From the IMG/VR virus record IMGVR_UViG_3300025697_000151, positions 1 through 23,713 of that record: a stretch of DNA of 23,713 nucleotides; one strand, written 5' to 3'. Positions within the stretch are counted from its first letter, which is position 1. Each line of letters opens with the position of its first letter. This document shows, piece by piece, positions 1,011 to 17,813 of the stretch. The translations under genes were made by a program, and so were the position numbers. The notes under the pieces are model-generated. The model was not told where the DNA came from and ran no database searches. It saw nothing but the letters and a program-made list of their open reading frames with translations. The stretch is from a virus.

Positions 1011-1466
1011 TCAAGTCACCTCCAATTTCTTTTTTGTTAAATATTTTAGGTTTGCAATCTTCTGACAGGCACGACATTCTCGCCCACCACCTTTCTTGTT
1101 ATATGTGTTTTCCGGAGTATATTCATGACCTCGTTTGCAGTGCGTTTTATTGCGGTTGTGATCCCCCAAGCTACGGGTTCTCCAAGAAGTTAAAACCTCT
1201 TTAATCCGATCTTTCCTTCTTTGACTCATGAAAGGATATAGGGTCATCATCAACCCAGCGGCCCTTCCCCCTGCCACATACCACTTACTGTAAATATGGC
1301 CCTGTGTATGGGTCCATGTATAAACGTGGCCACCAAATAAGCTTAGAAGCTTTTCAAGCGGCTCAGTGGTCATTTGACAAGCATTAACATAAGGACAGGT
1401 AGAATAATGGAAACTACCATCCCCCTCAATGAATCCCGCAGCCCACGCAATGTCTAACGTATTCAT
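1011..1466 (-). CDS. LAGLIDADG-type homing endonuclease, free-standing
   Basis: The N-terminus contains WAAGFIEGDGSF, a clear LAGLIDADG helix with the catalytic acidic residue in GDG. Only one such motif is present, so the active enzyme would be a homodimer. Near residues 108-137 a Cys/His cluster (HCKRGHEYTPENTY, then CRACQ) resembles the small zinc-binding or DNA-binding tails seen on phage homing enzymes. I start it at ATG 1466. A TTG at 1472 is in frame and overlaps the capsid stop codon, but a GAGAG ribosome site fits the ATG better. The gene sits tightly between the capsid gene and the decoration gene without interrupting either. It is therefore a free-standing mobile endonuclease, not an intron or intein ORF. 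Activity and target site are unknown. Confidence 0.85.
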   Translation of the reverse strand: MNTLDIAWAAGFIEGDGSFHYSTCPYVNACQMTTEPLEKLLSLFGGHVYTWTHTQGHIYSKWYVAGGRAAGLMMTLYPFMSQRRKDRIKEVLTSWRTRSLGDHNRNKTHCKRGHEYTPENTYNKKGGGRECRACQKIANLKYLTKKKLEVT

Positions 1467-1468
1467 GA

Positions 1469-2332
1469 TCAACTCTCACTGCACGCAATTTCAATAACCT
1501 GTTCTTCTTCGATGCGGGTTGCACCAACGTCCATTTTGAGCCATACTTGCCAGGCGTAATTTTTGTCAGCACGCTGGTCAATCTTGGCCTGGATATCGGT
1601 CAAGGTTCCCAAGCCGATTGCGCCCTTTGCGTAGGCGTAGCAATAACGAACTTCCGACGTAAGCTCCAGGAGCTGAGTCCGGATGAACGTGAAGCCCATG
1701 AAGGTGTTGATCTTACCCTCAACAAGCGCTTTCACGGTGTTGTAATCTGCGCTCTTGACTTCCGTGGTCTCCAGGAGGTTTGTGATTTGACGAGCGGCAA
1801 CGACGATATACCTCTCCATGTCCGGATCAACCTCGTCCGCATCCAGTTGCTCCTTGGCCGTCATGAGCTTGGTTAGGGTCAGGCCAACGCTGCCATGCGC
1901 GATTTTCTGGGCTGCCGGCAGGACGACCTCAGTTGTTCCGGTCTGACCTGAATACGAAGAACCGCCCAGGGCGGTAATGATCACCGAATCTTTGGCCCTG
2001 TTCATGGCCATGCGGGCGATCTGGTTATAGTAGTTTTTGGGATCGACGAGCATCCGGACCTGATCTTCCTTGTCAAGCAGCGTAGCCCACACGCGAGGCG
2101 TGGCAGTCTGCTTTCTCCGGGAATGATCAACTTCAATGTTCGGGGTGTCATCGTGGCGGGTTACGAGTTCAACGGCCTCAGTGGAGCCCATCCGCTCCCA
2201 ATACAAGGCATCTCCTGTCACCTGTACCGGTGGGATGGTCGTTCCCTCAAGCCGACTATTCTTCTGCTGGGAAAGAATACGGATTGTATTCTGATACTGC
2301 TCAACGTAATATTGTTCAATTGTTTCTGACAT
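1469..2332 (-). CDS. Major capsid protein (Phage_capsid_2-like)
   Basis: This is a 287-aa protein starting MSETIEQYYVEQYQNTI, followed by segments LYWERMG, DTPNIEVDHSRRKQT, VWATLLDKEDQVRML, DPKNYYNQIARMAMNRAKD and ALGGSSYSG. This order is familiar from phage capsid proteins of the Phage_capsid_2 type, thought to have an HK97-like fold and to form the icosahedral shell. The start is ATG 2332, with GGAGG placed at the correct distance in TTTTTGGAGGATATT. An in-frame TTG four codons upstream lies inside that ribosome site and is rejected. Context agrees: scaffold upstream, decoration downstream. Homing endonuclease genes lie directly before and after it, a known way of targeting an essential conserved gene. 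Confidence 0.88.
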   Translation of the reverse strand: MSETIEQYYVEQYQNTIRILSQQKNSRLEGTTIPPVQVTGDALYWERMGSTEAVELVTRHDDTPNIEVDHSRRKQTATPRVWATLLDKEDQVRMLVDPKNYYNQIARMAMNRAKDSVIITALGGSSYSGQTGTTEVVLPAAQKIAHGSVGLTLTKLMTAKEQLDADEVDPDMERYIVVAARQITNLLETTEVKSADYNTVKALVEGKINTFMGFTFIRTQLLELTSEVRYCYAYAKGAIGLGTLTDIQAKIDQRADKNYAWQVWLKMDVGATRIEEEQVIEIACSES

Positions 2333-2431: not shown

Positions 2432-2860
2432 TTACCTGCAAGTAGTCAGATTCCCATAACGGGGATTGCCTGACATATATTTTTTTGTCCAATACCGTCC
2501 TTTTTGGATAGCATCTTGGACATTATCAAGTGGTGTGCCTAAAAAGAGATGCTTTGGGTTTACACATCTGGGATTATCGCAACGATGCAAAACATTCATC
2601 CCTGCGGGAATTTCCCCATTGTGGATAACCCAAGACATCCTATGGGCCAACCAATAAATATTCCTAAACCATATCCTCCCATAACCTTTGGGAAGAGCAT
2701 TTTTTGTCCATGCCCAACATCCGGCATCCTGGTCGACCTTAAACCCCCGATACAATCTCTCTTTTGGCGTAGCCCGTGGTCGTTTTCCTCTTTCGTCACG
2801 GTGCTTCCGATAATAGCGACGGTCGGTTTCTCTTCGCACCTGGATGTTAGTGCTTGGCAT
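2432..2860 (-). CDS. HNH homing endonuclease (HNH_3-like)
   Basis: This 142-aa protein has a basic N-terminus rich in Arg and Lys, then [34 protein letters not shown] and [19 protein letters not shown]. The last segment is the HNH_3 signature: His of LHRC, Asn of CVNP and His of KHLF form the beta-beta-alpha metal site, and the paired Cys residues fit a structural zinc. The C-terminal [10 protein letters not shown] is also typical of phage HNH proteins. All catalytic residues appear intact. ATG 2860 lies one base after the upstream stop, with GGAG inside the upstream gene, so it is translationally coupled into the head operon. It is probably a free-standing homing endonuclease near the capsid gene. 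Confidence 0.88.
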
Positions 2861-2861
2861 T

Positions 2862-3215
2862 TCAATACTCCAATTCGTCCACGTTTATTTTCCCTTCACG
2901 GAACAAAAGCCGCCGCATTTCGACATAATGAGCTTCCGACATCCAGCCCTCAACAGTCTTTCCGGCTTGCACCTGATACGCCACCTCATAACCGATGAAG
3001 GTCACACCGTCCTCATTCCTGACATTCTTTCGACGGCCCTTGCTTATTACCTTTATATCGGCCAGGTTGATCTTGTCAAGCCTTATGATCTTGCCGTTAA
3101 CCTTTGGTGGCTTTGGCTCCGGGTGGAAACGTGGAGTCTTCTTTGAAGCCCTTTGACCCTTGTCCCATCGGCTGTAATCTTCCTCACTAACCGCTTCTCT
3201 CATTGTGCGTGCCAT
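2862..3215 (-). CDS. Hypothetical protein in head operon, 117 aa
   Basis: This is a basic, hydrophilic protein of 117 aa ([17 protein letters not shown]). A Lys/Pro-rich stretch ([15 protein letters not shown]) leads into a beta-like region with [13 protein letters not shown] and a helical tail [16 protein letters not shown]. There is no signal peptide, membrane span or catalytic motif. A purine-rich site (AGGGAGAGAAG) precedes the ATG. It lies between the scaffold gene and the HNH gene, upstream of the capsid gene. It may be a minor head-assembly factor or simply a conserved small gene of this operon. I do not recognise the family. Confidence 0.7.
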
Positions 3216-3226
3216 TCTTCTCTCCC

Positions 3227-4060
3227 TTATTTCGGGTACGCGGTTTGAAACAATCGTGCCATTTCCCCAACAGCCTCTTTATGCCCAGGGGCGTCCGGGT
3301 TCCAGTGAGCGTGCTTTTGATCTGCATTGATCTCCGCGATCCTGGCCTTGGCCGATTCAGCGCCTAAGACCCCGCCCTTGCCGTCCCCGATGATGTAGCC
3401 GTCCTCTTTCAGCATCTTGCCGACCTGGTAGGCGTACTTGAGCATCAGGGGGTGGTTCCCGACGCCTGATGAGTCCATGAGCGTCTTGAGCTGCGTCACT
3501 TCTTCAGCCGGGAGAAGGCGCTCAATGCCCCTGAGCCCCAACTCGACCCGACCGTCGAACTGATCACCCCAGGACTCTTGTAAGCCCGCAAGCTCGTTCT
3601 TCATGGTCTTCTGAGCTTCGTGGACCTGGCTAAACTGATTGTCATTCCAGGACTGCATGAGTTTCCCGGCTTGCGCCTTACTCAATCCGGCCTCATGGGC
3701 GGTTTTCCCAAACCAATCGACCATGCCCTCATCCCAGTTGACGCCGTCAGGCATCTCAGGCTTTACGAATTCGTAGCCTGCTATATCGTCCGGGCGCCCC
3801 ATCTTTGTATGGAATTCGGTCCACTCTTCTGGTGTGGCGTCGTCTTTTGGGACCCGGACGGAACTGCCTATGAGCTTTTGGCCCTCCACGTAGCTTTTTG
3901 CGAGCCCACCAACGTCTTTGAAGCTCTCAAGGGATTTCTCACTCTTCAGGTCGTCCGGGAGGCCCGAACGCCAATCTTCTTGGCCGCCCTGGTCTTCTGT
4001 ACCCTGACCATCACCGTCCCCTTGTTCTTCGCCCTGGCCGTTGCCCTCTTCTTCTGCCAT
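3227..4060 (-). CDS. Capsid scaffolding (assembly) protein
   Basis: This 277-aa protein begins with a very acidic, Gly/Glu/Gln-rich stretch (residues 1-28). Then come WRSGLPDDLKSEKSLESFKD, VGGLAKSYVEGQKLIG, RVPKDDATPEEWTEFH and the start of KMGRPDDIAGYEF. This succession is typical of the scaffold proteins of T7-like and related podoviruses. The rest is mostly charged helix and ends in a compact basic C-terminus with MARLFQTAYPK, the kind of region that contacts the coat protein. The protein would fill the procapsid interior and leave before or during packaging. It is located between the portal and the coat genes, as expected. No protease triad is visible, so self-cleavage is not suggested. 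Confidence 0.8.
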   Translation of the reverse strand: MAEEEGNGQGEEQGDGDGQGTEDQGGQEDWRSGLPDDLKSEKSLESFKDVGGLAKSYVEGQKLIGSSVRVPKDDATPEEWTEFHTKMGRPDDIAGYEFVKPEMPDGVNWDEGMVDWFGKTAHEAGLSKAQAGKLMQSWNDNQFSQVHEAQKTMKNELAGLQESWGDQFDGRVELGLRGIERLLPAEEVTQLKTLMDSSGVGNHPLMLKYAYQVGKMLKEDGYIIGDGKGGVLGAESAKARIAEINADQKHAHWNPDAPGHKEAVGEMARLFQTAYPK

Positions 4061-10028: not shown

Positions 10029-10517
10029 TTATTTTAAACTCCGCCCTTTCGTAACCCCTTCCAGCAATTCAACGACTTTCCCATCGATTAATACGGGCAT
10101 CTTTTTTTCATCCAGGCTCTCGTAATGCTCAACAAATCTCTTTTCGATCCATTTGAGTTCATCATAATCCCGAGCCATTAACCATGACCAGTCTCCAATG
10201 CGCCTTAACGCTTCGCGCACTTTAGGGTTTTCAGGCTCACGGCCTTGCTCAAGGCACTCCATCACCACCCCCCAAGATTCTAGCCCTTTGGAGGCTGTAC
10301 TCCCGATAATCGCAGCCCTGATCTCTCCGGGCTTAGGGAAGCTTGCAAAGGTTCTGCTTCTTACAATTTCCATAATTGCGCCCTTGACCTGGGCAATATC
10401 GAATTCATAAAGAGCATTGAAATACATTTCTGTCTTAATGGCTGAAGGCTGGCCATCGAATACCTCTGACAGCCCGATCATTAAATCAGCGAACATGATT
10501 TCATCCTGTGGCTGCAT
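10029..10517 (-). CDS. Replicative helicase loader/inhibitor (G39P-like)
   Basis: This 162-aa protein contains ADLMIGLSEVFDGQPS, EMYFNALYEFDIAQVKGAI and RSRTFASFPKPGEIRAAI in its first 75 residues. This helical pattern, ending in F-P-K-P-x-E-I-R, is the signature of the G39P-like N-terminal domain. In phage SPP1 G39P binds the replicative helicase and delivers it to the origin protein. The C-terminal part (DWSWLMARDYDELKWIEKRF) is charged helix. The gene overlaps the end of the O-like initiator gene in another frame, with AAGGAGACAAG before its ATG. The pairing copies the lambda O/P and SPP1 gp38/gp39 arrangement. A DnaC-type loader is unlikely because there is no Walker motif. Confidence 0.72.
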   Translation of the reverse strand: MQPQDEIMFADLMIGLSEVFDGQPSAIKTEMYFNALYEFDIAQVKGAIMEIVRSRTFASFPKPGEIRAAIIGSTASKGLESWGVVMECLEQGREPENPKVREALRRIGDWSWLMARDYDELKWIEKRFVEHYESLDEKKMPVLIDGKVVELLEGVTKGRSLK

Positions 10518-11370
10518 CTTGTCTCCTTTCCTGCCGAATTTTTAACCATTGCTCAATTCCGAGATTCTTTTTAGATCCATTGTCCCTATGATAACGGCCA
10601 TTCAAGACTTTTGTCATATTGGTTGGTCTAATTATCCATTCAAGATCTGATTGAAAGTCTGTTTTCTTACCCATTAAAAACTCTGATTCACCAACATAGG
10701 CAAAATACTGATCCCACCATTTTAGATTTTGTCGGTCTGGTTTCTCTCTCCAGCGAGCCCTTAGAATCTTCCGGAGGTGTTCCGGCCAAGATTGAATTTT
10801 TGGTAAAGCCGGAAGGATTTCATGGTAGAGTTTTGTTATCTCGTTATGAGGACAAGCTGGATGTTTCTCACTCTCGCCTTCCCCTTCGGAAGGCAAAGGG
10901 TCTCCAGTGTTATTGTCTTTTGTAACAGTGTCTTTTGTATAAGTGTCTTTTGTGGTACCCTTTTTCGGTAACGTCAAATTACCTTTTTCGGTAACGTACG
11001 TTACCTTTTTCGGTAACGTTACCTTTTTCGGTAACGTGAGCCATTCATCAAAATCCTTTTGAAATCCATAAGTTACAGTAAGGTCGTTACCTTTTTTGGT
11101 AAAGCGAGACGTAGCGTTACCTTTTTTGGTAATGAGGTTCATAGAAAGCAGCTTCTTGATCCCCATCGATACGTGAGGCTTAGAGATCCCAGTACATTCA
11201 ACAAATTGAGAGAGGGAAATAGAATCAGTCAATTTATTCCACCCATAAGTTTTCCGCAGAATCACGTCCAATATCTGACGAGCCTCCCCAGGAATCCTTG
11301 TTCGTCCCAGGGCTTCCATAATCTCATTGGATATCGCCGTGTAGCCATCTTCCTTTTGAGGTGATGCCAT
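10501..11370 (-). CDS. Replication initiator, lambda O-like (Phage_rep_O N-terminal domain)
   Basis: This is a 289-aa protein. Residues 9-75 (GYTAISNEIMEALGRTRIPG, ARQILDVILRKTYGWNKL, DSISLSQFVECTGISKPHVS) are the winged-helix domain of phage replication protein O, which binds origin iterons. Residues 80-155 are a low-complexity linker encoded by the iterons and a 15-bp repeat. Its peptides look repetitive (LPKKVT, VTEKGN, TKDT) only because the DNA is. The C-terminal domain (IQSWPEHLRKILRARWREKP, LKWWDQYFAYVGESEF) is typical of O-like proteins and should contact the helicase loader encoded next. The origin lies inside the gene, as in lambda. GGGGACC precedes ATG 11370. Confidence 0.88.
   Translation of the reverse strand: MASPQKEDGYTAISNEIMEALGRTRIPGEARQILDVILRKTYGWNKLTDSISLSQFVECTGISKPHVSMGIKKLLSMNLITKKGNATSRFTKKGNDLTVTYGFQKDFDEWLTLPKKVTLPKKVTYVTEKGNLTLPKKGTTKDTYTKDTVTKDNNTGDPLPSEGEGESEKHPACPHNEITKLYHEILPALPKIQSWPEHLRKILRARWREKPDRQNLKWWDQYFAYVGESEFLMGKKTDFQSDLEWIIRPTNMTKVLNGRYHRDNGSKKNLGIEQWLKIRQERRQDAATG
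10914..10956. repeat. Tandem 15-bp repeat inside the initiator gene
   Basis: Three head-to-tail copies occur on the plus strand: TGTCTTTTGTAACAG, TGTCTTTTGTATAAG and TGTCTTTTGTGG (truncated or diverged). They start at 10914, 10929 and 10944. They encode the TKDT-type repeats of the initiator linker and directly adjoin the iteron array. They are A/T-rich and could be part of the origin, for example as an unwinding element, or may simply be a slipped repeat in a linker. Confidence 0.65.
10955..11133. repeat. Iteron array: probable phage replication origin
   Basis: Six copies of an 18-bp dyad, consensus GTTACCTTTTTCGGTAAC, are visible. Two are exact (11000-11017 and 11018-11035). One differs at the first base (10978-10995). 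Two end in GGTAAA or GGTAAT with a T6 centre (11086-11103 and 11116-11133). One is degenerate, with a shifted left arm (about 10954-10972). Start-to-start distances are 22, 18, 68 and 30 bases. The array is within the O-like gene, and the peptides are read in two different frames, so the DNA, not the protein, is what is repeated. By analogy to lambda, it is the binding site of the initiator. Confidence 0.82.
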
Positions 11371-11648: not shown

Positions 11649-11843
11649 TTAAATCAACAAATCTTTAGGATCACAATTCAGAGCCTTTGCCAACCGATTG
11701 ATCGTCTTGAGCGTCAAATCTTTTGGGTTATAGAAATAATACCCGACCGCCTGACGAGTCATGTGAAGCAAGTCCCCAAGCGCCTGATATGTCAGCCCCT
11801 GTCGATCCATTTCCATCTTCAGTTTTTTTGTATTTAGTTTCAT
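11649..11843 (-). CDS. Cro/XRE-family transcriptional regulator
   Basis: This 64-aa protein consists almost only of a helix-turn-helix of the XRE/Cro type: LTYQALGDLLHMTRQAVGYY, with the recognition helix around TRQAVGYYF, then TLKTINRLAKALNCDPKDLL. It has no C-terminal dimerisation or cleavage domain, so a Cro-like role fits better than a LexA/CI-type repressor. It would bind the divergent control region at 11844-11985 and govern both early transcripts. No Shine-Dalgarno site precedes ATG 11843, and the likely promoter would start transcription at or near this ATG. A leaderless mRNA is therefore possible. Confidence 0.85.
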   Translation of the reverse strand: MKLNTKKLKMEMDRQGLTYQALGDLLHMTRQAVGYYFYNPKDLTLKTINRLAKALNCDPKDLLI

Positions 11844-13476: not shown

Positions 13477-14691
13477 ATGAGAATACTTCATTTTTCAGAC
13501 GTTCACGTGGAGGACAAGGCAATCGAAGAGGTACGGACTTGCTTAGGCTATATCGTGGAGCAGGCCCAGGACCTTAAGCCCGACCTTATCGTTATGGCCG
13601 GGGACACATTCAATAACCGACTTGTCAAGCTTGATTCACAGGCCGCAAAGCTGATTTTTGAGATGTACGCGAGATTAGCCGATATCGCGCCAATGGTAGT
13701 GATTGTTGGTACACCATCGCATGATGGGCTCACGGTGCAGGTCCTAAGCCACATCATAGGCAGATATCCTATCTATGTTTCGGATTTCCCGGAGCAGATA
13801 TTTTTTACGGGTACGGCCTTCTTTAGTGCCCCCCCAGTGATGGTAGACTGCGAAGCGGTAATCTCCTGCATCCCTACCCCCACAAAACAATACTGGCAGG
13901 AATACGGCGGGAAACACCAATCCGCAAAGGAAACTGACGCAGAGGTCGCCAAAGCCATGGGTGTAATGTTGGCGGACTTCGGAGCTAAAGCCTCAGAATA
14001 CGATTGCCCCCATATCCTGGTCGGTCATTTCTCTGTGGGAGGGGCCTTTGTCTCTGAAACCCAGCAGCTTATAGGAGTCGATATTGAGCTTTCCAGGGAT
14101 CAGATAGGGCTTGCTAACGCGGATCTGGTTTGCCTGGGGCATATCCATTTACGGCAGCGGATAGGGGAAAACATCTTTTATTCCGGGTCCATTTACCGGA
14201 AGGATTTTGGAGAATTAGAGGCGAAGGGTTTCTATCTCCATGAGGTTGATCCGGGTATACCAAAGCAGTACAAGTCCCAATTCATCGAAACCCCAACCCG
14301 GAAGCTGGTTAAAATCAAACACGATTTTATAGATTCCCCTATTTCAGAGCTTGATTTGTCTCTATATTCTCTCGATGAAGACGAGGTAAAAGACGCCGTT
14401 GTGAGAGTTGAAATCAAGGCCTATCAAGACGACGCCGACAAACTCAAAGAGGAGGACATCAAATCTTTCTACATGTCGGCAGGTGCCCGAATGGTTGATC
14501 TTAAAATTCAACGTGTTCCACGGGAAACAGTGCGAAGCGCGAAACTCCTTGAACTCCAAACCCTTCGGGAGAAGATCCGGGAGATGGCCCTCTTACGGAA
14601 AGAAGATGCTCCGGAAAGCATTTTGATCAAAGCAGACATGCTGGAGGGTATGACGCCGGATGCGATTTATAAGGAGATAGGCAATGCCTAA
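13477..14691 (+). CDS. sbcD: SbcD/Mre11-like DNA exonuclease subunit
   Basis: This 404-aa metallophosphoesterase pairs with the SbcC-like ATPase to process DNA ends and hairpins. Motif I is FSDVH (Asp8, His10). Motif II is MAGDTFNNR (Asp43). Motif IV is LVGHFS (His184) and motif V is CLGHIHLRQ (221-224), followed by YSGSIYRKDFGE, typical of Mre11. Motif III is GTPSHDG (78-84), where most family members have GNHD, so the usual Asn is lacking. I believe this variation exists in other phage proteins, but it is notable. AGGAGG lies just before ATG 13477. The C-terminal part (after about 300) should bind SbcC coiled-coil roots. Confidence 0.85.
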   Translation: MRILHFSDVHVEDKAIEEVRTCLGYIVEQAQDLKPDLIVMAGDTFNNRLVKLDSQAAKLIFEMYARLADIAPMVVIVGTPSHDGLTVQVLSHIIGRYPIYVSDFPEQIFFTGTAFFSAPPVMVDCEAVISCIPTPTKQYWQEYGGKHQSAKETDAEVAKAMGVMLADFGAKASEYDCPHILVGHFSVGGAFVSETQQLIGVDIELSRDQIGLANADLVCLGHIHLRQRIGENIFYSGSIYRKDFGELEAKGFYLHEVDPGIPKQYKSQFIETPTRKLVKIKHDFIDSPISELDLSLYSLDEDEVKDAVVRVEIKAYQDDADKLKEEDIKSFYMSAGARMVDLKIQRVPRETVRSAKLLELQTLREKIREMALLRKEDAPESILIKADMLEGMTPDAIYKEIGNA

Positions 14692-14884
14692 GCTCATGCC
14701 GTTAAAACATATCTGTGCTTACTGTACAGGGTACGGTTTCAAGGGAGGCAATCCCGACGGCCCAGGGCAGGCATATTGTAAAGATTACAAGAGATGGTTC
14801 CCGGATCAGATGGACCCGGAGCGGACCCCCGCCGGCATGAGAGGCGGGAAATGTAAACGCTGGAAGCATATGGGGGAAAAATGA
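14684..14884 (+). CDS. Cys-rich small protein, 66 aa
   Basis: The ORF overlaps the end of sbcD by 8 bases and is preceded by AAGGAG. Four Cys are spaced as C-x2-C (HICAYC), then one in AYCKDY and one in GKCKRW, probably a single zinc site. The remainder is basic and aromatic (KRWFPDQMDPERTPAGMRGG). It overlaps the methyltransferase start by ATGA. A zinc-ribbon accessory protein is possible, perhaps for one of its neighbours, but I do not recognise the family. Confidence 0.65.
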   Translation: MPKLMPLKHICAYCTGYGFKGGNPDGPGQAYCKDYKRWFPDQMDPERTPAGMRGGKCKRWKHMGEK

Positions 14885-15531
14885 AGTTACTCGATCTATT
14901 TTGCGGAGCCGGGGGCGCAGCTATGGGATACCATAAAGCAGGATTTGAGGTTGTCGGCGTTGATATTCACCCTCAACCTCATTACCCGTTTGAGTTCCAC
15001 CAGGCCGATGCACTTGAATTTCCACTGAAAGGGTTTGACGTGATACATGCAAGCCCACCGTGTCAGGCGTATTCGAGCTTAAAACACATGTGGAATGCAA
15101 AAAAACATGTTGATTTTTTGCCAGCAACGAGAGCTAGGCTTGTTGCATCGAGGCTACCATATATTATTGAAAATGTTAGGGGCGCACCGTTAATAAATCC
15201 CATGGTTTTATGTGGCACGATGTTTGGGCTTCAGACGGCGGACGGCGATGCCGAATTGTGGCGGCACAGGCTTTTCGAGTCAAACATGGGTTTAACCGTA
15301 GACCTGGAATGCAACCATCGGAAATTAAAGAAGGTTATTGGTGTTTACGGCAGTAGTGGTGGAAAATCAGTAAGGGGCGGTACCCAAGGCTTTAGTGTTA
15401 AAAAAAGGCGTGAGGCTATGGGAATCGATTGGATGAATGGGGCGGAATTATCCCAGGCAATTCCACCGGCATACACAGAGTTTATAGGAAAGAGATTAAT
15501 CGAAATATTTAAGAAAGGAGAAAAGGCATGA
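14881..15531 (+). CDS. DNA (cytosine-5-)-methyltransferase
   Basis: This 216-aa protein has motif I LLDLFCGAGG (residues 3-12), motif II GVDIH, motif IV ASPPCQAYSS with catalytic Cys61, and motif VI ENVRG (97-101). Near the end is AIPPAYTEFIGKRL, the family motif X-like segment that completes the AdoMet site. It transfers a methyl group from AdoMet to C5 of cytosine. It is much shorter than restriction-type enzymes (about 330-420 aa), so the target recognition region is minimal, as in many phage enzymes. No restriction endonuclease is adjacent. It probably protects phage DNA or marks it, perhaps relative to the SbcCD and Cas4-like nucleases encoded on both sides. Confidence 0.92.
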   Translation: MKLLDLFCGAGGAAMGYHKAGFEVVGVDIHPQPHYPFEFHQADALEFPLKGFDVIHASPPCQAYSSLKHMWNAKKHVDFLPATRARLVASRLPYIIENVRGAPLINPMVLCGTMFGLQTADGDAELWRHRLFESNMGLTVDLECNHRKLKKVIGVYGSSGGKSVRGGTQGFSVKKRREAMGIDWMNGAELSQAIPPAYTEFIGKRLIEIFKKGEKA

Positions 15532-17813
15532 AAATCAACAACTTGAAGCTACGCGGATTTATCGGCGTGAAAAAAGGACTTGGATTGGATGAAATCGAAT
15601 TAGATCTCTCCGGTCTTTCCGGGCTCATTGCCCTGTCTGGGCAGAACGGCGCTGGAAAAACTTCAATCCTGGAATCATTACAGCCATACCGGACCCTAGC
15701 CAGTCGATCAAAGGCCCTGCAGCATCATGTATTCATGCGGGACGCCTGCAAGGAGCTTGACTTTGACTTTCAGGGAGACAACTATCGAACCAAAGTCTTG
15801 ATTGATTGCGACTCCGGCAGGCAGGAAGGGTACATTCGGAAAAACGGTGTCAGCGAAATTGATGGTAAGGTCCGCAACTATGACGCATACATTGAAGATC
15901 TTTTCGGTTCAAAGGATCTCTTTTTCAATTCGATCTTTTGTGCTCAGAACGCCTCGAAGCTGTCGGATTTGACGACCGGGAAGCTCAAGGAACTGTTCTC
16001 GGAGTTCCTGCGCCTTGACCAGTACGTAGCCCATGAAGCCACAACAAAGCAGTGCCTCGTCATTCTAGGATCTCAGGCCAGCGTCTACGACCGACAGGTT
16101 GAACGCATTCAGGAGAGCGTCCGGTTGTTGATAGGGGTAGACGAGCAGCTTGAGGGGGCGATTAACGCCAAAACAGAGCAAACAGCCTTGATTACGCAAA
16201 TTGAGCACAGTATCGTGTCCATGGCGTCCAGAATCGTAACCACTGGCGAAATAATCGCAGTCAATGCGATCATGGAAGACCGGGCAGAGGATTTCCGGGG
16301 AAGGATTAAGGCCTCGGAGGCTGGAATTGAAAACGCATCTGACGAATATAACGCCCGGGTGGACGGATTACGCGGCAAATTACGGAAGGTCAAAGCCGAC
16401 ATTTCCACCTTCGATAAGACCCTGGAAATGCGGGATGAGATTGAAGCCGCAACTTCCAGAAAGACAGAGCTGAATGAGAAGATAATAAATCAGACAACGG
16501 CCATTGAACGATGTCAATCTGATCTTTATGCGATCAGGGAAAAAATCCACCAACATGATCAAACCATTCCACCGTCCACCAAACCCCACAAGCGGGAAAA
16601 CGACATTCCTCTGTTGAAGTTACAGATCCAGAATGCCGAAAGCAAGGCCCAAGATCTTGAAAAGAGGGACCCGGACTGCACGTCAAAGACTTGTAGCTTC
16701 ATCGAGGGCGCTTTGCAGGCTCAGGGCTCGGTTGAAGGCTTGCGGGCAGAACTGAAAGCGGTTGGATGGGAAGTCGCGGAACACGACCGGAAGGTTGAAA
16801 CCATCCTGAAAGAAGCCGCCGGAGCCAAAGCCGAGATGCAGGGCATTGAAGACGAAATATCACGTACCGTGAAGATTCTGCAAAAACGGCTTTCCGCCTC
16901 GAAAGTTGAATATGACGAATGTGCGCGACGAGCGGCCCGTCACGACGATTTGAGAGTAGCCATCGCCCAGAAGAAAACCGCCCAAGCCCGCGCAGAGGAA
17001 TTAACCGCCCAGGGAATGAAGGAAAAGACCGTTTTTGATGTAAGAAATGACAACTTATGGGCAGAACTTGACAAAATGCGGGCGTCTTTGGACGAAATCA
17101 TGGCGAAAATTGACAGTTCCGCAAAAGGCACCCTCACGGCGCTTGAGATTACCCATGAAGACAAGCTGGCCGAGAAAAAAGGGATCATGGAGCAGGTTGA
17201 CGCCCTATCTTCCGATATTCAGCAATACCAGCGGGAGATAGAACAGAGGAACGCATACAGGAAACAAGAATCCGAGTTGAACTTGAAACAAGCGAGCATC
17301 CAAACCCAGATAAAGGAATGGACGTATCTAAGGGACGCCCTATCAAAGGACGGACTCCGGGCCCTGGAGATTGATGCCGTAGCTCCATCGATCTCAGCCT
17401 ATGCAAACCAGATCCTTTTCAACACCTTCGGCCCTGCTTATTCCGTGAAGTTGCGGACCCAGGACGATGAGGGACGTGAGGTTTTGGACATCCTGGCTAT
17501 AGAAGAGGACGGCAAGGAAACGCTGTTAGAGGATCTGTCAGGAGGGGAAAAGGTCTGGAGCTTAAAGGCGCTTCGGCTGGCCATGACGTTGATAGCAAAG
17601 CAAAAAAGTGCACGACAATTTTTGAGCGCCCTTGCAGACGAAGAGGATGGCGCCCTTGACGCAGGAAACGCCCAGAACTTCATTCATCTTTATCGGTCTT
17701 TCATGGACGCGGGTGGCTTCGAGGATTGCTATTTCATCAGTCATCGACCTGAGTGCATCGCCATGGCCGACCATGTTTTAGAGTTTGGGAATGGTGGGGT
17801 CTCGATCAATTAA
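15528..17813 (+). CDS. sbcC: SbcC/Rad50-like ATPase
   Basis: This 761-aa SMC-type ATPase has Walker A GQNGAGKTS at 38-46, long coiled coils on either side of a mid-protein hook (DPDCTSKTCSFI, Cys384 and Cys389), the ABC signature LSGGEKVWSL at 670-679, a Walker B region around ALADEEDGALD (702-712) and an H-loop SHRPE (His739). The protein is shorter than cellular SbcC (about 1,000 aa), as in other phage versions such as T4 gp46. It should pair with the SbcD-like protein to process ends or hairpins. The hook is C-x4-C, not the usual C-x2-C. The start overlaps the methyltransferase stop (ATGA). Confidence 0.9.
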   Translation: MKINNLKLRGFIGVKKGLGLDEIELDLSGLSGLIALSGQNGAGKTSILESLQPYRTLASRSKALQHHVFMRDACKELDFDFQGDNYRTKVLIDCDSGRQEGYIRKNGVSEIDGKVRNYDAYIEDLFGSKDLFFNSIFCAQNASKLSDLTTGKLKELFSEFLRLDQYVAHEATTKQCLVILGSQASVYDRQVERIQESVRLLIGVDEQLEGAINAKTEQTALITQIEHSIVSMASRIVTTGEIIAVNAIMEDRAEDFRGRIKASEAGIENASDEYNARVDGLRGKLRKVKADISTFDKTLEMRDEIEAATSRKTELNEKIINQTTAIERCQSDLYAIREKIHQHDQTIPPSTKPHKRENDIPLLKLQIQNAESKAQDLEKRDPDCTSKTCSFIEGALQAQGSVEGLRAELKAVGWEVAEHDRKVETILKEAAGAKAEMQGIEDEISRTVKILQKRLSASKVEYDECARRAARHDDLRVAIAQKKTAQARAEELTAQGMKEKTVFDVRNDNLWAELDKMRASLDEIMAKIDSSAKGTLTALEITHEDKLAEKKGIMEQVDALSSDIQQYQREIEQRNAYRKQESELNLKQASIQTQIKEWTYLRDALSKDGLRALEIDAVAPSISAYANQILFNTFGPAYSVKLRTQDDEGREVLDILAIEEDGKETLLEDLSGGEKVWSLKALRLAMTLIAKQKSARQFLSALADEEDGALDAGNAQNFIHLYRSFMDAGGFEDCYFISHRPECIAMADHVLEFGNGGVSIN

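Follow-up and report, generated by a model that had tools for sequence, protein, structure and literature searches.

A probable lambda-type replication origin formed by dyads within an O-like initiator gene of a viral contig

Why should an 18-bp DNA dyad be repeated six times within the coding sequence of a phage replication gene? The window analysed here, a stretch of 23,713 nucleotides, is an IMG/VR contig and possibly a fragment, and all six copies of the dyad (GTTACC-N6-GGTAAC) lie within its minus-strand O-like gene at 10501-11370. It has already been noted that distant O genes, including those of lambda, P22 and phage L, contain different iterons in their coding sequence; gene 18 of P22 and gene 18 of phage L belong to the O family and each has its own, different in-coding repeats (PMC8022706). 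We conclude, with a probability of roughly 0.9, that the window segment is a phage origin of replication of the lambda type, located inside the gene for its own initiator. Beyond prior knowledge, our sequence comparisons point to a residue-level pairing between the initiator and its sites, and to a conserved repeat held in fixed register beside them.

The dyad array and its host gene

The features of the locus, in gene order, are as follows.

10501..11370 (-): O-like replication initiator gene, 289 aa (ORF 11370..10501; PF04492, phrog_345, TIGR01610).
11143..11181 (-): codons of the recognition helix, residues 64-76, KPHVSMGIKKLLS (AlphaFold2 helix, pLDDT about 95).
11173-11175 (-): His66 codon; this residue changes together with arm base -5.
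11116..11133: iteron 1, the first along the gene, coding strand ATTACCAAAAAAGGTAAC, read ITKKGN; part of the low-confidence wing is encoded here.
11086..11103: iteron 2, TTTACCAAAAAAGGTAAC, read FTKKGN; also within the wing-coding stretch.
11018..11035: iteron 3, perfect dyad GTTACCGAAAAAGGTAAC, read LPKKVT; 68 bp past iteron 2, a spacing kept in the family.
11000..11017: iteron 4, perfect dyad, read LPKKVT.
10978..10995: iteron 5, GTTACCGAAAAAGGTAAT, read VTEKGN.
10955..10972: iteron 6, the last, GTTACCGAAAAAGGGTAC, read LPKKGT; its axis and the first ACAAAAGA are 10 bp apart.
10916..10953 (-): predicted unwinding element with ACAAAAGA present three times (10946-10953, 10931-10938 and 10916-10923) at 15-nt spacing, read TKDTYTKDTVTKD.
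10029..10517 (-): next gene, in the lambda P position, sharing 17 bp with the end of the O gene; matches phrog_10105 (unknown function) at E = 8.6e-18.

The gene product matched two curated models above their cut-offs, PF04492 (Phage_rep_O; E = 3e-22, 79.4 bits v 28.7) and TIGR01610 (E = 5.7e-16, 58.8 bits v 45.5). A match to phrog_345 ('replication initiation O-like', E = 2e-34) extended along most of the protein. With its winged-helix N-terminal domain it belongs to the Phage replication protein O family, as the initial annotation had proposed in calling the gene O-like. In a PHROG search, the C-terminal part matched the corresponding end of phage replication initiators and of DnaD-like loaders. 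An AlphaFold2 model, built on an alignment of 54 sequences, gave a winged-helix domain with helices at residues 15-23, 28-44 and 53-60, a recognition helix at 64-76, and strands at 80-83 and 100-103 separated by a low-confidence stretch at 84-99 (pLDDT about 62-66). Iterons 1 and 2 are codons 80-95 and encode most of this wing stretch, so the wing sequence is largely dictated by the DNA repeat. Neither lambda O nor the window protein, used as a phmmer query, retrieved a solved structure from the family, and Foldseek gave no match at E ≤ 0.001; the proteins that Foldseek listed were general winged-helix proteins (CRP, MarR, plasmid Rep, DnaD N-domain) and therefore speak for the fold class only. 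For O proteins on their iterons, no structure has been solved (PMC10797057).

The coding-sense repeat unit of the array is GTTACC(G/A)AAAAAGGTAAC, and the iterons are inverted repeats with GTTACC/GGTAAC arms around an A-tract centre. Copies start at 10955, 10978, 11000, 11018, 11086 and 11116, with start-to-start distances of 23, 22, 18, 68 and 30. The initial annotation had five of these starts right, placed the first copy at 10954, and gave four of the five intervals; the two reading frames it described were confirmed, three copies being read LPKK(V/G)T and three (V/F/I)T(E/K)KGN. The copy at 10955 is the most degenerate of the six (GTACCCTTTTTCGGTAAC, 2 mismatches). Scanning the whole 23.7-kb record at ≤1 mismatch gave matches at five of the six array places and nowhere else, and a reversed control pattern gave 0 matches in the same record. 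A raw scan at ≤3 mismatches was dropped as uninformative (15 matches v 6.4 expected), the proper control being a synonymous-codon shuffle that keeps the protein and its codon usage (100 shuffles per gene). The window array scored 16.0, against a shuffle mean of 2.9 (SD 2.2, maximum 7.0, n = 100). The shuffles never reached the observed score; thus, the window array exists at the level of the DNA and is due neither to chance nor to the encoded peptide.

By sequence, no lambda-P-like loader could be recognised beside the window O gene. The gene at 10029-10517 also had a weak DUF6475 match, below cut-off, and is a possible candidate for a helicase loader. Upstream of the O gene lies a small Cro/CI-type HTH regulator (11649-11843, minus strand), in a lambda-like layout. 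Elsewhere in the window, a LAGLIDADG-like (1011-1472, minus strand) and an HNH-like (2432-2860, minus strand) homing endonuclease, both assigned by eye, flank the capsid gene at 1469-2344, and a cytosine-methyltransferase-like ORF (14881-15531) stands between an SbcD-like gene (phrog_100; 13477-14691, plus strand) and a gene for an SbcC-like ATPase assigned by eye (15528-17813, plus strand).

Arrays in related O genes

We assembled 190 non-redundant related genes from viral-contig scans with several seeds, one genome-contig match and annotated phages, a sample biased towards one domain family found by short peptide patterns. An in-gene dyad array scoring above all 100 synonymous shuffles was present in 145 of the 190, and 45 had no array above every shuffle; the calling favours even dyads. 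The arrays of these 145 relatives use at least 60 different six-base arm words. Arm sequences varied between phages and agreed within a gene, with a consensus of 0.92-0.96 at the five core bases (-8 to -4).

The encoded peptide followed the arms. TTACC arms were read TEKGN-like or LPKK, TTATC arms IKKDN-like or LSKK, and TTGCC arms AKNGN-like or LPK(K/M), and arrays used two or three reading frames in 141/154 genes. A further count found identical arm cores in two frames in 103/121 genes, compared with 16 after between-gene shuffling; it is partly circular because the sites were called by similarity, and we relied on the synonymous shuffles instead. The initial annotation had argued that selection acts on a DNA site rather than on the peptide, and had named as the contrary outcome related phages that keep the peptide and lose the dyads. 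The outcome was the opposite, with peptides changing along with the DNA arms and 0/100 synonymous shuffles reproducing the window array, in agreement with that argument. Its description of the spacing as irregular did not hold, as intervals of 18, 22-24 and 68 bp recur across the family (the 68- or 69-bp gap accounts for 71 intervals).

Outside the genes the arm words were at chance level. Up to 3 kb of flank on the relatives, 464,502 bases in all, contained 2 matches to the iteron arm word, and a shuffle also gave 2. Both flank matches belong to one relative, L254, at nt 606-630 of its O gene, just past the 600 nt called as gene. At about nt 606-650 the L254 gene has two more iterons, GTTACCGAATCAGTAAC and GTTACCGAATCGGTAAC, and some arrays thus sit later in the gene. 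A viral-contig scan with TTACCRAAAAAGGTAA gave mostly single-site matches; the one examined, L015 with five sites, was a true relative. One genome-contig scan found a single relative, in a deltaproteobacterial MAG.

In L003 (match 3001-3501), and also in L154, a whole unit made up of an iteron and a linker, VTKKGDTLNVTYGIQKDFEKWRVSPKKVSP, has been duplicated in tandem without loss of frame, which adds iterons and gives a direct view of array growth. L123 has the N-terminal domain and TTACC iterons of the window (61% identity over the N-part), with a C-terminal sequence that is apparently different; domains appear to have been swapped behind the origin.

Recognition helix and arm bases

We compared every protein column with every arm base in 132 even-spaced arrays, leaving out odd-spaced lambda-like arrays. 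The strongest pair was residue 66 and base -5 (excess MI 0.77 bit, z = 16.7). Residue 66 sits at the start of the modelled recognition helix and outside the iteron-encoded stretch; covariation at residues 80-95 was discounted, as the codons there are the iterons themselves. The pairing was tight for His (with C, 44/45) and Asn (with T, 20/22), was also seen for Lys (C, 6/7), Leu (T, 5/6) and Val and Glu (G, 6/6), and was loose for Ala, Thr, Arg, Ser and Gln. Contacts of His or Lys with the G opposite C, and of Asn with the A opposite T, would be chemically ordinary. Arg69 occurred with C(-4) in 87/89 cases and Pro65 with T(-7) in 48/48, bases that are common anyway.

Pairs of genes with similar domains but different bases at -5 differed at residue 66 in 22/25 cases, compared with 8/25 control pairs with the same base (25 disjoint pairs). 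On a tree built without the recognition helix, 26/41 changes of base -5 fell on branches with a residue-66 change (P = 1.4e-9, ranking first among 79 columns; second-ranked P = 1.2e-3), a count that is approximate, as it comes from Fitch parsimony on a short-alignment tree. Because both the matched pairs and the tree show the signal, shared ancestry does not explain it. When only genes below 60% identity were used for prediction, residue 66 gave the right base at -5 in 97/132 arrays, against 64 for the majority base.

In the window protein, His66 is paired with C(-5) and Pro65 with T(-7); position 69 is an unusual Met where most relatives have Arg69, yet C(-4) is kept. At the sequence level, this indicates that the protein reads its own dyads. 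The helix-arm covariation also gives strong, though indirect, support to symmetric sites bound by the initiator of the same gene, a possibility raised in the initial annotation.

The A-rich repeat and the proposed origin

Right after its last iteron the window continues with CACAAAAGACACTTATACAAAAGACACTGTTACAAAAGACAATAAC, and the lambda counterpart is GACACAAAAGACACTATTACAAAAGAAAAAAGAAAAG. These AT-rich repeats, absent from the initial annotation, have the consensus ACAAAAGA(C/A)A(C/A)TATT, occur on one strand only and adjoin the last iteron. The 190 genes contained 315 coding-strand copies of ACAAAAGA and 1 on the other strand (synonymous shuffles, 78 expected, maximum 91). Copies are spaced 15 or 14 nt apart, and about a third of them (67 and 34 of 315) depart from the main frame. 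In 56 genes the distance between the first copy and the axis of the last iteron-like site is exactly 10 bp, and in 20 more it is 9.5-11 bp. Unlike the arms, ACAAAAGA hardly varies among the phages that have it, which include lambda, P22, HK97 and Escherichia phage Bas106; P22, HK97 and Bas106 differ in helicase arrangement, so the motif is independent of loader type.

The motif was missing in 46/190 relatives, and in phi80 and CBP1 it was absent after the last iteron. Relatives that lack an array or lack ACAAAAGA (45-46 genes, for example L141, L148 and Mimir87) may have other iteron types, such as direct repeats or longer spacers, or other unwinding repeats. The A/T runs of Caldibacillus phage CBP1 are an example of a possible repeat of the latter kind.

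AT-rich single-stranded DNA is bound by lambda O and by the O proteins of two Stx phages (PMC7466680), and plasmid Rep proteins bind their own AT repeats as sequence-specific single strands (PMC4081077). By analogy, our best guess is that, once the DNA is opened, one ACAAAAGA strand is contacted by a conserved region of O; if true, the shared fixed-register repeat would mean that its single strand is read by some component common to these replication systems. Earlier work, cited in PMC10797057, had noted repeats in the lambda origin. We found no earlier account of the shared motif and its register, nor any of the lambda AT repeat sequence, in the literature searched, whose coverage largely excludes older journals.

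In lambda, O dimers bind iterons that are imperfect inverted repeats of 19 bp, each with an A-tract, and the iterons stand before a 40-bp A+T-rich region that opens (PMC7466680; PMC5043065); O binds as a dimer and bends DNA (PMC5043065). The four annotated iterons of lambda (NC_001416) are read in three frames, as IPQNEG, SPKTRD, SLKLGD and YPSKQG. The initial annotation had held that dyads with a T-rich centre set the window apart from lambda, a contrast that falls away as lambda iterons are themselves A-tract dyads, bound by O dimers and read in three frames. Like lambda, the window has repeats in the initiator gene past the DNA-binding domain, each an inverted repeat with an A-tract, in several frames, with the same polarity and the same order of parts, and downstream of the last iteron it has an AT-rich region, which in both contains ACAAAAGACACTATTACAAAAGA directly past that iteron. 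They differ in that the four lambda iterons have TCCCTC-type arms around an odd spacer and lie entirely downstream of codon 116, whereas the six of the window have GTTACC arms around an even spacer, and the first two fall in wing-coding codons 80-95 and are followed by the 68-bp gap. P comes after O in lambda, whereas the window's following gene is not recognisably lambda P.

The Stx phages P27 and 933W also have six iterons in the O gene and an AT-rich tract, but with lambda arms, and the extra copies add 13 residues to the O protein. Two of the six Stx iterons are required for plasmid transformation, though one is weakly bound (PMC7466680). P22 and HK97 share the ACAAAAGA repeat with the window, whereas P22 and L differ from it in arms and spacer lengths and in the phage DnaB-type helicase that comes next. 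Iteron plasmid origins usually lie outside the rep gene. Those of RK2 and others resemble the window in having initiator sites beside AT-rich repeats bound as single-stranded DNA (PMC4081077), but their Rep binds iterons as a monomer (PMC5043065). P1 repL/oriL has an origin within the initiator gene and an AT-rich element sensitive to synonymous changes, but no dyad array is described in the abstract on which this comparison draws (PMC9948254).

Could the array serve some other purpose? As operators, the dyads would let the O protein or another regulator control transcription, with no replication start. The Foldseek lists do hold many dyad-binding repressors of MarR/ArsR type, and a bound array within a gene could block transcription, but neither the promoter of the gene nor the remaining flank, up to 3 kb, contains any copies, the repeat known from lambda's AT-rich region comes after the array at a fixed register, and arrays of four to seven sites suit an origin better. 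We therefore consider operators improbable. A function in the mRNA, with each dyad forming a hairpin (6-bp stem, 6-nt loop) that governs translation or mRNA stability, seems very improbable: free change in the stems would be expected wherever pairing is preserved, whereas the arms are near-identical among the sites of one gene and covary with the DNA-recognition helix, even though each dyad can be folded as a stem-loop and the arms are complementary in every array-bearing relative.

There is likewise very little to suggest that the repeat belongs to the peptide, with TEKGN/LPKK linker units spread by duplication and the DNA likeness incidental. The linker is of low complexity and a whole block is duplicated in some relatives such as L003, but synonymous shuffling never recreated the array, the same DNA is read in two or three frames in most genes, and the peptide changes with the arms. 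A replication origin is the well-supported reading of the array, and that replication would start here follows by analogy from lambda. Site architecture and binding specificity are supported computationally; melting, loading and origin activity are assigned by homology with lambda.

As an origin, the segment would most likely work as follows. The N-terminal winged-helix domain, probably as a dimer, would bind each 18-bp dyad with one recognition helix per arm, placing His66 near the C(-5):G pair. Six filled sites would form a bent nucleoprotein complex (O-some), and the adjoining A-rich repeats (ACAAAAGACACTATT, which begin 10 bp away from the last iteron's axis) would melt and be held as a single strand. 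The C-terminal part of the O-like protein would then recruit the helicase, directly or via a loader.

What is known of origin specificity in the O family comes from only a few lambdoid phages. Since target sites and initiator share one gene, a few hundred environmental O genes amount to a natural selection experiment that names likely contact residues. With each gene holding both reader and target, it is reasonably probable, in our judgement, that the family has a readable protein-DNA code, in which residue 66 specifies base -5 (His or Lys for C, Asn or Leu for T, Val or Glu for G), residue 65 is linked to -7 and residue 69 to -4, together with a sequence-specific unwinding repeat in fixed register to the last iteron, common to divergent O-type origins including lambda. 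The conserved AT repeat with its fixed register turns lambda's loosely described AT-rich region into a defined sequence whose reader can be searched for, and origins in uncultured phage genomes can be located from the O gene alone.
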